Source: a bacterium
Lineage (GTDB): Bacteria; Desulfobacterota; Binatia; HRBIN30; CADEER01
DNA: 64,000 nucleotides
Assembly: GCA_019637795.1 (NCBI GenBank)
Contig: JAHBUY010000001.1
Span: 393,001 to 457,000, forward strand
Reading direction: 5' to 3'
The notes below the pieces were generated by a model. The model was not told the origin of the DNA. It did no database searches and saw only the letters and a program-made list of their open reading frames with translations. Positions 15,136 through 21,572 of the stretch are shown here, one piece after another. The translations under genes were made by a program, and so were the position numbers. Position 1 is the first letter of the stretch, and the number at the start of each line of letters is the position of its first letter.

Positions 15136-16554
15136 TCAGGCGGCGAGCAGGTGCCCGGACAGGTAGTGCCAGTAGGTGACGGCGCCGTCCTGCCAGCAGG
15201 CGAAGCGCACGCCGCCGTCCTGCGAGACGATGATCGCGACCGCCTCGGGCATCGCCTGGCAGAGGCGGTAGGCGGAGCGGTGCCGGGTGCCGACGCGCTC
15301 GGTGGACTCGGGCACGCGCACCGTGCCCTCGAGGTCGTGGGCCCGCATCACCACCGGCACGTCGGGCAGGTTGCCGGCGATCTCGGCGCCGAAGCCGAGC
15401 AGCTCGAAGGTGTGGGTCATCAGCACGGCGCCATCGACCGCGGCGAAGCCGGCGATCAGGTGCGCGACCTCGAACAACGCCTCGTCCAGCCCCGCGACCG
15501 TCGCCCCGCTGCTGTGCCGGTACTCCGCCCAGCCCACCGCCTCGGCCAGCGGTCCGGCGTGCTGTGCCGCCAGCGTATCCATGATGCGCAGGATCAGGGT
15601 CCGGTAACGGCGCCGCGCCTCGCCGTCGGCGAGGCGATAGTGCACGCGCAGGAACGACGGCGGCGACGACAGCGCCGCCTCCGCCGCGGACGGGACGACC
15701 AGCACGGTGGCGCCGTGGCGGGCGGCGCGGATGACGGCGATGAGCTGACGCACCATGTGCTGGCCGATGCCACGGATCAGGCTCTCGTCGAGCGGCGCCC
15801 ACGGCACCTTCGCCGTGGCGCGGTCGGCGGCGTGTTCCGCCAGGAGGGCCGCGCGCACCGCCGCGAAGCGGCGCGGCAGCCACTGCGAGGCGAAGACGTC
15901 GACCGTGGTGCCGCCGATGCGGCCGGCCTCGAGCCGCGCCAGCACCTCGTCGCCCAGCTCCACCTCGATGCGACCGGGGCCGCCGACGCTCACCACCAGG
16001 GCGCGCGGCAGCGCCGGCGCCGGCAGACGGCCGCCGGTGCGCACCCGCAGCCAGCGCGCGCCGGCGTGGACGATGCCCCACAGCGCCGGCCGGCCGCCGT
16101 CGCCGATGCAGGCGCCGATCAGCGCCCGATGGTACGGCGCCGCGGCGGCGAGCCGGCGCAGCTCGCTGACGTCGCAGAGCCGGCGCTCGCGGAAGCGCAG
16201 CACGTGCAGGCCGCTCGGCGGTCCGCCGCCCTCCGGCATCACCTCGGGCGGCGCGACCAGCAGGCGGAAGATCACCTGCCGCCCCTCGTCGCGCAGCAGG
16301 CTCGCCTGGTAGGCGGTCGAGAGCAGCGACTCGAGGCGCGCCGGCTCGAGCAGCGGCGAGGCGACGGCGCCGTCGCCGCGGCGGCGCAACGCCGCCAGCA
16401 CCGCCGCCGCCAGGTCGGGTGGATAGGCGTGATGCGCCGGCGGCTCGCCACCCGCCGCCTCGTCGCGATCGCGCTCGTCGGCCATGGCCGTCAGCGCGCG
16501 GCCGCCGGCCGCGCTGGCGATGGCGGGCGTGTCAGACGCCCGCCTCGTCGACAT
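15136..16554 (-). CDS. DAC-domain protein (DACNV-like putative nucleotide sensor or diadenylate cyclase)
   Basis: 472 residues from ATG 16554; a start 69 bases further in (MADERDRDE) is also possible. The C-terminal ~130 residues carry the diadenylate cyclase (DisA_N) signature: DGAVLMTHTF near 374-383 and GTRHRSAYRLC with RHR near 424-426, followed by IIVSQDGGVRF. These are the DGA and RHR motifs that bind ATP and metal in c-di-AMP synthases. The N-terminal ~340 residues match no domain I can name, and there is no DNA-binding or membrane segment as in DisA or CdaA. This resembles the DACNV group proposed as sensors. With both motifs intact, c-di-AMP synthesis is possible but unproven. No c-di-AMP phosphodiesterase is in the window. 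Confidence 0.7.
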   Translation of the reverse strand: MSTRRASDTPAIASAAGGRALTAMADERDRDEAAGGEPPAHHAYPPDLAAAVLAALRRRGDGAVASPLLEPARLESLLSTAYQASLLRDEGRQVIFRLLVAPPEVMPEGGGPPSGLHVLRFRERRLCDVSELRRLAAAAPYHRALIGACIGDGGRPALWGIVHAGARWLRVRTGGRLPAPALPRALVVSVGGPGRIEVELGDEVLARLEAGRIGGTTVDVFASQWLPRRFAAVRAALLAEHAADRATAKVPWAPLDESLIRGIGQHMVRQLIAVIRAARHGATVLVVPSAAEAALSSPPSFLRVHYRLADGEARRRYRTLILRIMDTLAAQHAGPLAEAVGWAEYRHSSGATVAGLDEALFEVAHLIAGFAAVDGAVLMTHTFELLGFGAEIAGNLPDVPVVMRAHDLEGTVRVPESTERVGTRHRSAYRLCQAMPEAVAIIVSQDGGVRFACWQDGAVTYWHYLSGHLLAA

Positions 16555-16911
16555 GACACCAGCGCCAGCGCTCGCCCGGCGGAGCGCGCCGTCACCGCGC
16601 GAATGGCGGCGGGATGTTCACAGGGCATGCCGGCCATCCTGCCGTCGGGCGTCACCACACCGTCGGCGGCCGACGCGAGAGCCTTGGCGCATGGACCCGA
16701 ATCCTAACCACAACGGGCCATCGAGGACACGGGGGGCGCCATGCGCCCCCACGACGGCCGCCGAGGGGACCGACGGAACCCGGCGTTCCGCGACCGGCCG
16801 GCTGGTGATAGGGTCGCGCGCGGGATGGCCGGCGCGCGCATCGAAACGATCGCCGAACTGTCGCGCCGGGAGCGCCAGCGGATCGCCACGGCGGGGGCCG
16901 GAGGGACGACC
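16555..16911. other. intergenic stretch between divergent genes
   Basis: 357 bases separating the DAC-domain gene from the nucleotidyltransferase gene. The frame of the latter stays open upstream to about 16741, but the added residues look like random GC-rich translation. It presumably holds both promoters. No convincing promoter, RNA or repeat was seen. Confidence 0.4.
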
Positions 16912-17394
16912 ATGGACGAACCGGCGGACAAGGTGGGCGCCCTGCGAGACGCGGTGCGTGCCCTCGACCAGGTGGCCGCGGCGTGCGCCCTGATCGGCGG
17001 GGTGGCGGTGGGCATCCGTTCCGGCCTGCCGCGCGCCACGCTCGACACCGACCTCGCCGTCGTGTCGACCGCTGACCGTGCCGCGACGGTGCGCGCCCTC
17101 GTCGCCGCGGGCTTCGAGCCGCGCGGCGAATTCGCGCACAGCGTCAACTTCCGCCATGCCAGCGGCGAGCCTCTCCAGATCGTCTTCGATCCCTCGTTCG
17201 ACCCGATGATCGAACGGTCCGAGGTGATCCCGGTCGGCGGCGTGCCGGTGCGCGTCGTCACGACGGCCGATCTGATCACCATGAAGGAACGCGCCGCCGC
17301 GGATCCCGGCCGGCGACGCAGCAAGGCGCTCCGGGATGCCGCGGACGTCGCGCTCCTCCGCGGCGACGTTCCGGATCCCGACGAGGGCTGGTGA
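16912..17394 (+). CDS. AbiEii-like/MNT-type nucleotidyltransferase
   Basis: 160 residues from ATG 16912, chosen because a GGAGGG ribosome site ends six bases before it. The pattern LIGGVAVGIRSGLPRATLDTDL is the polymerase-beta fold active site (GG, then the D-x-D pair) as in AbiEii/UbiB-like nucleotidyltransferase toxins and related MNT proteins. RVVTTADLITMKERAA and a helical end follow. Full AbiEii toxins are longer and sit with AbiEi antitoxin; no such partner is adjacent here. It may be a solitary housekeeping or degraded toxin-type enzyme. The target is unknown. Confidence 0.65.
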   Translation: MDEPADKVGALRDAVRALDQVAAACALIGGVAVGIRSGLPRATLDTDLAVVSTADRAATVRALVAAGFEPRGEFAHSVNFRHASGEPLQIVFDPSFDPMIERSEVIPVGGVPVRVVTTADLITMKERAAADPGRRRSKALRDAADVALLRGDVPDPDEGW

Positions 17395-17473: not shown

Positions 17474-18547
17474 ATGCGCCGCCCTGCCCTCTTGGCCGTT
17501 CTCGCCCTCCTCGCCCCGGCCGCCGGCGCGGCGCAGAGCGCGCCGCCGCCGACGCCGCTGATCGTCGGCGTCACCGACAGCCGGCCGCTGTCGTACCAGA
17601 ACGACGACGGCGTCTGGACCGGCCTCGGGGTCGTCGTCTGGGAGCAGATCGCGGCGCAGGTGGGGCTCACCTACGAGCTGCGGCCGATCGCCATGGGTGA
17701 CGTCACCCACGCCCTCGCCGACCACTCGATCGACGCCGCGATCGGCGCCATCCCGGTGACCCCGGAGGGCGAGGCCGTGCACGACTTCAGCCAGCCCTAC
17801 CTGGTCACCGGCCTCGGCTTCGCCCAGCGGCAGCAGGACGGCATGCTGTGGAGCGCGCTCATGCGCGCGTTGCTCGACCCGCGCCTGCTGACCATGGTGG
17901 GCGGGATCATCGCCAGCGTGCTCGTCGTCGGCGTGCTGATCGCCCTGGTGGAGCGGCGCTCGCACAGCACCGACTTCGGCGGCTCGATGCGCGAGAGCGT
18001 GTCGATGGGCGTGTGGTGGGCGGCGGTGACCATGACCACCGTCGGCTACGGCGACGCGACCCCGAAGACCACCACCGGCCGCGCCCTGGCGCTGGTGTGG
18101 ATGTTCGTCGGCGTCGTCGCCGTCGCCTTTCTCACCGCCACCGTCACCTCGGTGCTCACCCTCGCCCACCTGCGCGGCGCGGTGGAACACCCCTCCGATC
18201 TGCTGCGCATGCGGCTCGGCGTCGTCGACAGCGGCGCCGGCGCCGACTACCTCGGGCACCGCCACGTCGCCTACGCCACCTACCCGACCTACGAGGACGC
18301 GCTGGCGGCGCTCGATCGCGGTTCCGTCGACGCGGTGGTGGGCACCCTGCCGGTGTTGCGGGCGCTGGTGTCGCAGTCGTGGACCGGCCGCCTGCAGGTG
18401 TCGCCGATCGTCCTCGAGCCGCTGCTCTACGGCGTCGCCCTGCCCGACGGCAGCCCGCTGCTCAGCCGCGTCAACCAGGCGCTGCTCGCCATCACCCACG
18501 ACGACGCCTGGCACGACACCGAGGAGCGCTTCCTCGGCCGCCGCTGA
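17474..18547 (+). CDS. prokaryotic ionotropic glutamate-receptor-like K+ channel (GluR0-type)
   Basis: 357 residues. Order of parts: Sec signal (1-20); first lobe of an amino-acid-type periplasmic binding domain (about 28-120); membrane helix M1 (about 139-159); a pore loop with the K+ filter TVGYGD at 189-194; helix M2 (about 205-229); second binding lobe (about 243-350, with GSVDAVVGTLPVLRAL and DGSPLLSRVNQALL). This interrupted binding domain around a two-helix K+ pore is the layout of cyanobacterial GluR0 and of eukaryotic glutamate receptors. In amino-acid binders a TPER Arg usually holds the ligand carboxylate; here the segment reads VTPEGEAVHDFSQPY with Gly, so the ligand may not be an amino acid. 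A CPA2 antiporter gene converges five bases away. Confidence 0.85.
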   Translation: MRRPALLAVLALLAPAAGAAQSAPPPTPLIVGVTDSRPLSYQNDDGVWTGLGVVVWEQIAAQVGLTYELRPIAMGDVTHALADHSIDAAIGAIPVTPEGEAVHDFSQPYLVTGLGFAQRQQDGMLWSALMRALLDPRLLTMVGGIIASVLVVGVLIALVERRSHSTDFGGSMRESVSMGVWWAAVTMTTVGYGDATPKTTTGRALALVWMFVGVVAVAFLTATVTSVLTLAHLRGAVEHPSDLLRMRLGVVDSGAGADYLGHRHVAYATYPTYEDALAALDRGSVDAVVGTLPVLRALVSQSWTGRLQVSPIVLEPLLYGVALPDGSPLLSRVNQALLAITHDDAWHDTEERFLGRR

Positions 18548-18552
18548 ACGGG

Positions 18553-19806
18553 TCAGCGGGCGGCGTCCGCCTCGCGCGACGCCGGCGGGTAGAGCCAGGC
18601 CAGGACGGGCGCCGCCATCATGGTGGTGGCGATCGCCATCAGCACCATCATCGCGAACACCTCGGGGCCGATCAGGCCGAGGTCGAGACCGAGGTTGAGG
18701 ATGATCAGCTCCATGAGACCGCGGGTGTTCACCAGCACGCCGAGCCCGGCGGCGTCGCGCCAGCCGAGGCCGACCAGGCGCGAGGCGATGAGCGTGCCGC
18801 CGAGCTTGCCGGCGACCGCGACCGCGATCAGCAGCGCCACCAGCGCCCACTCGCCCGGCCCGTCCAGCAGGCCGATCTGTGTCCGCAGACCGGTGTAGGC
18901 GAAGTAGAGCGGCAGCAGGAAGACGGTGGCGAAGTCCTCCACCGTCGCGCCGAGCGCGCGCGCGAAGCCATCGCGCTTGGGCACGACGACGCCGAAGAGG
19001 AAGGCCCCGAACAGGGCGTGGATGCCGATCGACTGCGTCGCCAGCGCGCTCAGCATGAGCAGCACCAGCATCGCCGCCAACACGTTGGGCGTCACCCGGC
19101 CGACGGCCCGCGCCGCAAGCCGCGCCAGCAGCGGACGCACGACGCCCAGCATCGCCGCGGCGTAGAGCGCCACCTGCGCCAGCACGCCGGCGACGCCGAT
19201 CCCACCGCGCGCCGCGCCGACGGCGGCGACCAGCGACAGCAGCGTCCAGCCGGCGACGTCGTCGACCGCCGCGCAGGTGAGCGCCAGCGCGCCCAGCCGG
19301 GTGCGCAGCAGGCCGCGCTCCATGAGGATGCGCGCCAGCACCGGAAATGCCGTGATCGCCATGGCCGCGCCGAGGAAGAGCGAGAATCCCGCCGCCGTCG
19401 CCGACGGACCGGCGTGCGCCGGGTAGAGCGCCACCGCCACCCACGCCCCGAGCGCGAAGGGCAGCGCGATCCCGGTGAGCGAGATCACCGCCGCCACGCG
19501 CCCGCGCTGCCGCAGCAGCGCCGGATCCAGCTCGAGGCCGATCAGGAACATGAAGAGGATGATGCCGACCTCGCTCAGCAGCTTGAGGAACGGCATCGCC
19601 GAGGCGGGAAACAGGGCGGCGGCGGGCGCCGGCGCCAGCCAGCCGAACAGCGACGGTCCGAGCAGGATGCCGGCCACCACCTCGCCGATCACCTGCGGCT
19701 GGCGCAGGGCGCGGAAGGCGAGGCCGAGGACCCGCGCCACGGCGATGATCACCGCGATCTGCAGCAGCAGGACGGCGAGGAGATGGTCGATCTCGGCGGC
19801 GGGCAT
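18553..19806 (-). CDS. CPA2-family cation/proton antiporter (KefB/NapA-like membrane domain)
   Basis: 417 residues from ATG 19806; the frame is open further upstream but that part is not membrane-like. About 12-13 hydrophobic segments and the family landmarks are visible: RQPQVIGEVVAGILLGPSLFG, GIILFMFLIGLELDP, ITAFPVLARIL, and the ion-binding LTCAAVDDVAGW with the Asp-Asp pair. HALFGAFLFGVVVP and LVNTRGLMELIILNLG follow. No TrkA-N/RCK domain is attached, so it is a bare exchanger. It would swap Na+ or K+ for H+ across the inner membrane. The gene ends five bases from the convergent K+ channel gene, an interesting pairing for K+ handling. Confidence 0.93.
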   Translation of the reverse strand: MPAAEIDHLLAVLLLQIAVIIAVARVLGLAFRALRQPQVIGEVVAGILLGPSLFGWLAPAPAAALFPASAMPFLKLLSEVGIILFMFLIGLELDPALLRQRGRVAAVISLTGIALPFALGAWVAVALYPAHAGPSATAAGFSLFLGAAMAITAFPVLARILMERGLLRTRLGALALTCAAVDDVAGWTLLSLVAAVGAARGGIGVAGVLAQVALYAAAMLGVVRPLLARLAARAVGRVTPNVLAAMLVLLMLSALATQSIGIHALFGAFLFGVVVPKRDGFARALGATVEDFATVFLLPLYFAYTGLRTQIGLLDGPGEWALVALLIAVAVAGKLGGTLIASRLVGLGWRDAAGLGVLVNTRGLMELIILNLGLDLGLIGPEVFAMMVLMAIATTMMAAPVLAWLYPPASREADAAR

Positions 19807-19985
19807 CGGCGGCGGTCGTCGGCCCCAGCCACGTACAGGATGCGCCGGCCGCCGCAAGGGGCGAACGGCGTTTCCCCCGGCGCCGCGCCCCGTCTCCCGC
19901 CCGCCCGTCGGGCCCAGCGGGCCCGCCGCCGCGGACGCGGCGTACATTGAATCAATCGCGCAAAAGTGAAAAAAGCTGAAGGCGC
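19807..19985. promoter_or_regulatory. divergent promoter region with an AT-rich patch
   Basis: The 179 bases between the divergent antiporter and peroxidase genes. From about 19942 to 19980 the sequence becomes markedly A/T-rich (TTGAATCAAT, then CAAAAGTGAAAAAAG), which stands out in this genome, just before ATG 19986. A promoter for the peroxidase gene is likely here. No clear -35/-10 pair could be fixed. Confidence 0.35.
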
Positions 19986-21572
19986 ATGTCGAACACCGCG
20001 TCGCCCGTGGGCGCCGCTCGCCGCGCCCGCTTTGCCCTCGCGATCGCCGTATCGCTCTCCCTATCGCTCGCCGCCTGCGGTGGCGGCGGGAGCGGCGGCG
20101 GCAACGGCGCCGCGTCCCTCGACCGCCGGCTCGAGCGCCTGATCGCCGACAACCATCTGCACGGCCATCCGACGCTCGATCATCCGCCCCTCGGCGCCGA
20201 GCAGACGGCGCTGCTCGAGAAGCGGATCGAGCTCGGGCGTCTGCTGTTCTTCGACCACGCGCTGAGCGGCGTCGAGCAGACCTCGTGCGCCACCTGCCAT
20301 CACGCCGCCTTCCAGTTCAGCGACGCGCGCAACATCGCCCGCGGCGTCTTCTGCGACCTGGTTCCCGAGGTGAGCATCACCTGCCACCCGGCGCCGGCGC
20401 CGGGCAGCGATGGCAACGTCGTCGGCCCCGAGCGCGCCTCGCCGCTCAACAGCCGCAACAGCCCGTCGCTGATCAACGCCGCGCTGTTCCCGCGCCTGAT
20501 GTGGAACGGCCGCTTCCGCTTCATCGACAACCGCAGCACCGACGTGAACCAGTGCGATCCCGAGGAGGGCTTCCGCCTGCCGGCGCCGGAGGGCGACATG
20601 TTCGTCCGCTCCCTGCTCACCGCCCAGGGGCACATTCCGGTCACCGAGCTGGTCGAGATGACCGGCAACTTCCCGCACAGCGACGGCAGCATCGAGGACG
20701 CGGAGGAGGCCAACCCCGAGATCCGCGAGGCCCTCACCACCCGCATCGACTTCACCCCCGCCTACCGCGCGCTCTTCGAGGAGGCATATCCCGACCGGCC
20801 GGACCTGATGCTCTCGCCGCTCGATCCGATCGTCGGCCCCAACGACGACCTCAGCTACCTCGCCATCGCCGACGCGCTCGGGCATTTCCAGGAGTCCCTG
20901 ATCATGACCGACGCGCCGTGGGACGCCTACCTCGCCGGCGATCGCGGCGCCCTCAGCGCCGCCGCCAAGCGCGGCGCCATCGCGTTCTTCGACGGCGGCC
21001 GCTGCTCCTCCTGCCACGCCGGCGAGCTGTTCAGCGACTTCGACAACTACAACATCGGCGTGCCCCAGGTCGGACCCGGCACCGGCCGATCGGCGGCGCG
21101 CGATGCCAGCTACGGCGGCCGCACGAACTGGGACTTCGGCCTCGAGGAGATCACCACCGAACGGAGCGACCGGTTCAAGTTCCGCACGCCGCCGCTGCGC
21201 GGCGTCGCCCTCACCTCGCCGTACATGCACAACGGCGCCTACGCGACCCTCGAGGACGCCATCCGCCACCACGTCGACCCCGCCGCGGCCTATGCCGCGT
21301 ACGACCTGTCGCAGATCGAGCCCGCCATGCAGGCCTTCGGCCTCAACCCGGCGGGCCCGGTGTTCGACGCCCGCAATCCGGTCGTGCTCGGCCGCGGCCC
21401 GGGGCAGCGGCGCATCGATCTGAGCGAGGCGCAGGTGGCGGACCTGGTCGAGTTCCTCAAGGCGCTCACCGATCCGCGCATGCTGGACACGGCGGCGTTC
21501 GCGCCCGCCTCGGTGCCCAGCGGTCTGCCCGTCGATGTCGCCGGACCACGCCATTTCCCGACCTACGAATAG
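19986..21572 (+). CDS. di-haem cytochrome c peroxidase/MauG-like lipoprotein
   Basis: 528 residues. The lipobox SLSLAAC puts the lipidated Cys at 31, followed by a Gly/Ser spacer. Two c-type haem motifs are present: CATCH at 101-105 and CSSCH at about 340-344. The arrangement LGRLLFFDHALSG and FKFRTPPLRGVALTSPYMHNGAYATLEDAI matches the CcpA/MauG superfamily. Extra sequence between the haems (about 110-200, with a third CHP Cys-His) makes it longer than classical CcpA (~320 residues). Periplasmic peroxide reduction or MauG-like oxidation of a partner protein are both possible. The downstream FG-GAP gene overlaps its 3' end by 38 bp, so the two are probably co-expressed. Confidence 0.9.
   Translation: MSNTASPVGAARRARFALAIAVSLSLSLAACGGGGSGGGNGAASLDRRLERLIADNHLHGHPTLDHPPLGAEQTALLEKRIELGRLLFFDHALSGVEQTSCATCHHAAFQFSDARNIARGVFCDLVPEVSITCHPAPAPGSDGNVVGPERASPLNSRNSPSLINAALFPRLMWNGRFRFIDNRSTDVNQCDPEEGFRLPAPEGDMFVRSLLTAQGHIPVTELVEMTGNFPHSDGSIEDAEEANPEIREALTTRIDFTPAYRALFEEAYPDRPDLMLSPLDPIVGPNDDLSYLAIADALGHFQESLIMTDAPWDAYLAGDRGALSAAAKRGAIAFFDGGRCSSCHAGELFSDFDNYNIGVPQVGPGTGRSAARDASYGGRTNWDFGLEEITTERSDRFKFRTPPLRGVALTSPYMHNGAYATLEDAIRHHVDPAAAYAAYDLSQIEPAMQAFGLNPAGPVFDARNPVVLGRGPGQRRIDLSEAQVADLVEFLKALTDPRMLDTAAFAPASVPSGLPVDVAGPRHFPTYE

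Follow-up and report, generated by a model that had tools for sequence, protein, structure and literature searches.

To what does a potassium channel of the glutamate-receptor type respond once both residues that would hold an amino acid have been replaced? The question is raised by a gene for a 357-residue protein (P0001) at positions 17474..18547 of the forward strand in the window, a stretch of 64,000 nucleotides from contig JAHBUY010000001.1 of a bacterium of the class Binatia. Judged by its sequence, this protein is by descent a member of the GluR0-type channel family, Group 1 of Ger et al. The favored answer, to which a probability of roughly 0.55 is given, is that it would be a K+ channel gated from the periplasm, whose ligand, with both amino-acid anchors lost, is probably something other than an alpha-amino acid.

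The order S1-M1-P-M2-S2 of the channel is given by its Pfam domains together with an AlphaFold2 model (mean predicted local distance difference test score 86.9). The SBP_bac_3 domain (5e-19) covers residues 29-355 and is split by Ion_trans_2 (4e-14, residues 149-229), with Lig_chan also above its cut-off. This bears out the preliminary description of the locus, which saw a two-lobe binding domain interrupted by M1, a TVGYGD filter, and M2 as in GluR0. The S1 half of the binding domain (residues 28-119, positions 17555..17830, +) and the S2 half (residues 240-357, 18191..18544, +) enclose the M1 helix (residues 136-162, 17879..17959, +), the K+ selectivity filter TVGYGD (residues 189-194, 18038..18055, +), and the M2 helix (residues 200-234, 18071..18175, +), the counterpart of eukaryotic M3; both helices are placed from the model. 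Fold comparison, one of the checks proposed in that description, matches the model to the GluR0 cores. GluR0 from Synechocystis (Slr1257) and the GluR0 core of Nostoc punctiforme (structures 1ii5 and 2pyy) have the domain order, the K+ filter, and the binding-domain fold in common with the window channel, and architecture and filter are likewise those of the Group 1 prokaryotic glutamate receptors (PMC2950845). Homology extends over the full length to 243 proteins at E<=1e-3, far beyond chance; channel homologue counts and residue tallies given below refer to the best 120 of these unless stated otherwise. The filter, in the form TTVGYGD, is kept in 117 of the 120.

The binding site is where the channel departs from its relatives. 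Ger et al. 2010 describe an Arg contacting the alpha-carboxylate and an Asp contacting the alpha-amino group in prokaryotic Groups 1 and 2 (PMC2950845). GluR0 and the Nostoc core hold the amino acid by these two residues, and both are replaced in the window channel. A HMMER alignment of the window protein places Gly99 (codon 17768..17770, +) on the Arg of 2pyy and Thr291 on its Asp, and a profile of the clade defined below, compared with 2pyy and the glutamine-binding protein GlnBP, assigns the same two sites. The tetrapeptide TPEG at residues 96-99 occupies the T-x-E-R position of GluR0-type binders, which confirms the change of the TPER arginine to Gly noticed earlier. The loss of the S2 aspartate had been overlooked: Gly290-Thr291 (18341..18346, +) take the place of a Tyr-Asp pair that is present in most receptors with intact amino-acid contacts and in which the Asp holds the amino group.

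Both losses extend well beyond the window. Of the 72 closest homologues (P0001 and P0003-P0073), here called the clade, 67 are without both Arg and Asp and another 3 without Arg alone, and in the remaining 2 one of these sites falls in a gap; the carboxylate Arg is absent in all 71 readable members. Both residues are kept in 46 of the other 48 homologues, the exceptions being P0081, with Arg and Gln at the two sites, and P0107, with Gly and Glu. The earlier suggestion that the ligand may be novel is strengthened by this clade-wide loss of Arg together with Asp. Groups 1 and 2 are reported to have Arg and Asp totally conserved (PMC2950845), in contrast to the clade, which mostly has neither. 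A search of open-access literature found, among the titles and beginnings of abstracts listed, no description of a prokaryotic clade of ionotropic glutamate receptors (iGluRs) without both residues.

An ordinary amino-acid-gated relative of GluR0, binding its amino acid through other residues, is an improbable alternative. It would agree with the strongest fold matches of the channel model, which are glutamate- and glutamine-binding proteins, and with the Asn that 53 of 68 clade members have at the Asp site, which could still form a hydrogen bond to an amino group. The window protein itself, however, has Thr at the Asp site and Gly at the Arg site, Thr94 is lost too, as are most Ser/Thr residues of the S2 cluster, and the reported total conservation of Arg and Asp in known prokaryotic receptors (PMC2950845) argues in the same direction. 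The further contact columns changed in most clade members are Thr94 to Pro or Ala, Ser254 to Gly, Ser256 to Gly, and Tyr290 to Ala. Ranked by divergence between the clade and the rest among 334 columns, four of the ten contact columns stand at 2, 3, 17, and 21 and the other six between 38 and 234.

A tree built without the ten pocket columns recovers the 25 sampled clade members as one clade with a support of 100/99.8. Its sister is a pair consisting of P0081 and L005, the latter from a genome in the window's class, in which Arg is kept and Gln stands for Asp (support 98/85.5); the next candidate branch, with Arg kept and Asn or Ser for Asp, is unsupported (87/52). Three changes are needed on this tree at the Arg site and six at the Asp site. 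The tree is unrooted, and the nearest neighbors of the clade in it keep Arg. The simplest order, with the root and direction that we infer, is that Asp was lost first and Arg second. Because the sister lineage lost Asp yet kept Arg, the class of ligand may have shifted in steps, the amino-group contact going first, as in the sister state, and the carboxylate contact then going in the clade. Among 80 loci kept of 534 in GTDB genomes, 68 have both residues, 9 have Arg without Asp, 3 have Asp without Arg, and none is without both; single losses of either residue thus occur outside the clade too. The loci with Asp kept and Arg changed to Asp or Ser are L079 (Martelella) and L081 and L092 (Verrucomicrobiota), all outside the clade of the window. 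Arg is kept and Asp changed to Asn, Ser, or Gly in L058, L077, and L078 (Bacteroidota), L084 and L090 (Pseudomonadota), and also L071, L074, L082, and L088; such channels are possible half-way ligand changes.

The more serious rival holds that the lobes no longer bind a ligand and that the K+ channel is either constitutively open or gated in some other way, its binding domain serving only assembly or the sensing of osmolarity, pH, or ions. This is judged rather unlikely overall, although the conservation of the contact columns, given below, fits it as well as it fits a new ligand. In a comparison by sequence pairs, which are not independent of one another, pairs within the clade exceed those outside it in binding-domain identity at equal pore identity, throughout the bins between 0.50 and 0.75 (0.486 versus 0.410 at a pore identity of 0.60-0.65, for example). 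These values by bin indicate that the binding domain as a whole is not decaying, which speaks against ligand-free lobes, as do the near-invariant, clade-specific lobe residues Ser310 (65/68) and Trp303 (63/68) and the presence of Gly99 in 56/68 members. A third such residue, His103 (59/68), is new and nearly fixed and would be compatible with a pH sensor. Position 157 of M1, a Trp in 98% of the sequences outside the clade, is mostly Ala inside it, and the residue directly after the filter is likewise changed; gating may therefore have changed as well, as the rival would have it.

Several observations weigh against a non-amino-acid ligand. Above a pore identity of 0.75, the binding domain of the clade is not more conserved than that outside it, with 0.583 versus 0.637 at 0.75-0.80 and 0.656 versus 0.662 and 0.712 versus 0.724 in the two bins above 0.80. 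The contact columns of the clade, now mostly small residues (Gly, Ala), show no significant excess of conservation over the remaining columns of the domain (P = 0.28 with ten contact columns and 0.14 with six), and a separate test within the clade gives P = 0.23. Outside the clade, the same columns do show such an excess (P = 0.017 with ten and 0.002 with six). The tested pocket columns, moreover, are taken here to be ligand contacts partly on the strength of GlnBP and GluA2 structures, and the amino-group Asp is still present in 3 of the 72 members. The missing extra conservation of the contacts keeps a loss of ligand binding a real rival.

Under the favored reading of a channel opened by a ligand other than an alpha-amino acid, four subunits would surround an inverted K+ pore, by analogy with GluR0. 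The lobes would face the periplasm, and a likely signal peptide at residues 1-21 (17474..17536, +) was picked by eye, the model having a helix at residues 5-12. As in GluR0, closure of the lobes on the ligand would pull M2 and open the pore. K+ would then run down its gradient through the open channels and set the membrane potential, at the expense of which the product of the neighboring antiporter gene would expel Na+. GluR0 itself is reported to conduct K+, to influence cell volume on a KCl upshock, and to have been used in complementing an E. coli strain deficient in K+ uptake (PMC13099474).

A broader proposal, which is tentative and clearly less probable than the favored reading itself, is that the clade may parallel the insect Ionotropic Receptors among bacteria and consist of K+-selective iGluRs retuned to non-amino-acid environmental chemicals and working beside a Na+ extruder. 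The insect receptors are described (PMC2924276) as relatives of iGluRs whose binding domains are without the glutamate-contact residues and sense other chemicals, and the clade is like them in this loss of residues. The insect receptors are eukaryotic, in contrast to the clade, whose loss is bacterial and presumably independent. Filters of insect Ionotropic Receptors are not known to be of the K+ type. A clade without the two contacts, with a sister half way, would show a change of ligand class among prokaryotic glutamate receptors, whose two known groups are reported to keep both contacts totally. Its small, soluble lobes and intact K+ channel would also serve in the search for ligands and in tests of how iGluR gating can be retuned outside nervous systems.

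The antiporter gene (18553..19806, -) begins with an ATG at 19806 and encodes 417 residues (P0122). It is separated from the channel by five bases (18548-18552) between the two stop codons; the distance and the convergence were described correctly at the outset, but the term head-to-tail was wrong, as the genes lie tail-to-tail. The protein matches PF00999 (E 5e-58, obtained with the longer open reading frame 18553-19947), its sole Pfam domain, with no RCK domain found; a match to TIGR00932 is below the cut-off. The closest solved relatives are entries of the Thermus Na+/H+ antiporter NapA (4bwz, 5bz2; E 4e-27), followed by the K+/H+ exchanger KefC (8bxg; 3e-6), a CPA2 family member like the window protein. 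As in NapA, there is a PF00999 fold, an ion-binding Asp-Asp (DD) motif at residues 182-183 (19258..19263, -; aligned to NapA D156-D157), and a transmembrane lysine, Lys334 (18805..18807, -; aligned to NapA K305), whereas the Gln-Asp (QD) motif of KefC was not found. The lysine is present in all 120 antiporter homologues listed, and the 12 closest, the window's own included, have DD in 9 and Asn-Asp (ND) in 3; a homologue named Candidatus Binatia (P0136) is 64% identical. KefC is treated as electroneutral with its QD motif (PMC11150392), and NapA is electrogenic, with DD suggested as a mark of electrogenic members of the superfamily (PMC6181914). The NapA-like match, the DD motif, and the lysine lead to the prediction of Na+/H+ rather than K+/H+ exchange, the ion being a prediction across distant homologues. 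The earlier assignment as a K+/Na+-H+ antiporter is therefore upheld for the CPA2 family and not for K+, and the proposed K+ or pH homeostasis pair is weakened.

A dedicated channel-antiporter pair for Na+/K+ or potential homeostasis, which would be compatible with the favored reading, is nevertheless a doubtful but discussable idea. Other clade members are known here as proteins without genomic context, and the pair in four close relatives is a deduction from equal contig sizes: P0003/P0124 (7356 base pairs [bp]), P0006/P0127 (19238 bp), P0007/P0131 (5390 bp), and P0010/P0129 (3298 bp). All four fall within the 15 x 11 closest comparisons, where ∼0.04 equal sizes would be expected by chance, and in the same set 4 of 165 pairs have unequal sizes within 50 bases of each other. 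Sources overlap within each of the four pairs, and the 3298-bp contig, if it carries both genes complete, has room for no more than ∼940 bp between them. P0124, P0127, and P0129 have DD, and P0131 has ND. Against a dedicated pair, ∼0.9 equal sizes are expected across both whole lists, convergent genes are not co-transcribed, and a NapA-like antiporter offers no direct link to K+. Six further close channels on contigs of at least 3272 bp (P0005, P0008, P0011, P0012, P0014, and P0017) are without a partner of equal contig size in the list of 120 antiporters. By tblastn, the antiporter is absent from the fetched flanks (a few bases to ∼9.5 kilobases per side) of all 90 other channel loci, namely, 80 genome loci and ten class relatives. 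The pair is thus deduced in four of the closest relatives and not seen in the fetched flanks of the more distant loci, and the link is probably recent and narrow.

A channel of this family is carried by 12 of 148 genomes of the window's class at E<=1e-60, with the Gly/Thr type in the window's genome only, and among 395 sampled genomes from the phylum, only that genome and G021 gave matches at E<=1e-75. The window's genome has one strong match, the channel itself, and three weak ones (E 1e-5 to 7e-4). A scan of genome contigs with the single channel protein gave no match, and one with alignment A1 gave no locus closer than 41% among the 80 kept of 534; these scans thus brought up no clade member besides the window's own, although near records may be absent from the 80. 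Five loci of the class (L011, L012, L013, L014, and L104; family f5) are iGluR-like, keep Arg and Asp, and have ATQAD at the position of the K+ filter, which makes a non-K+ pore likely, as in the published Group 2; L104 contains one internal stop codon.

Two genes upstream of the channel lies a gene for a DACNV-domain protein (2e-21; 15136-16554, -) with a weak, divergent match to the diadenylate cyclase domain of DisA. As a third partner in an island for cyclic di-AMP and K+, this gene was considered and rejected. Its 120 listed homologues, which also serve as a control for the antiporter comparison, have 3 contig sizes in common with the 120 channels (∼1.3 expected): one of 2636637 bp, which shows no more than a shared genome, and two, of 2177 and 6579 bp, from differing sources. 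They have none in common with the antiporters, and the gene is absent from the 90 channel flanks. Tight linkage to the channel is thus not supported. In G021 (L106), the closest relative within the class that has a channel, a protein with a Fumble-type pantothenate kinase domain is encoded upstream and acetyltransferase, tannase-like, and thiolase-like genes lie downstream; no gene theme common to these flanks and the window was found as a clue to the ligand. Directly upstream of the window channel is a gene for an AbiEii-type nucleotidyltransferase (PF08843, 1.5e-7; 16741-17394, +), and the antiporter gene is adjoined by one for a MauG-like di-heme cytochrome c peroxidase (PF03150, 1e-32; 19986-21572, +).
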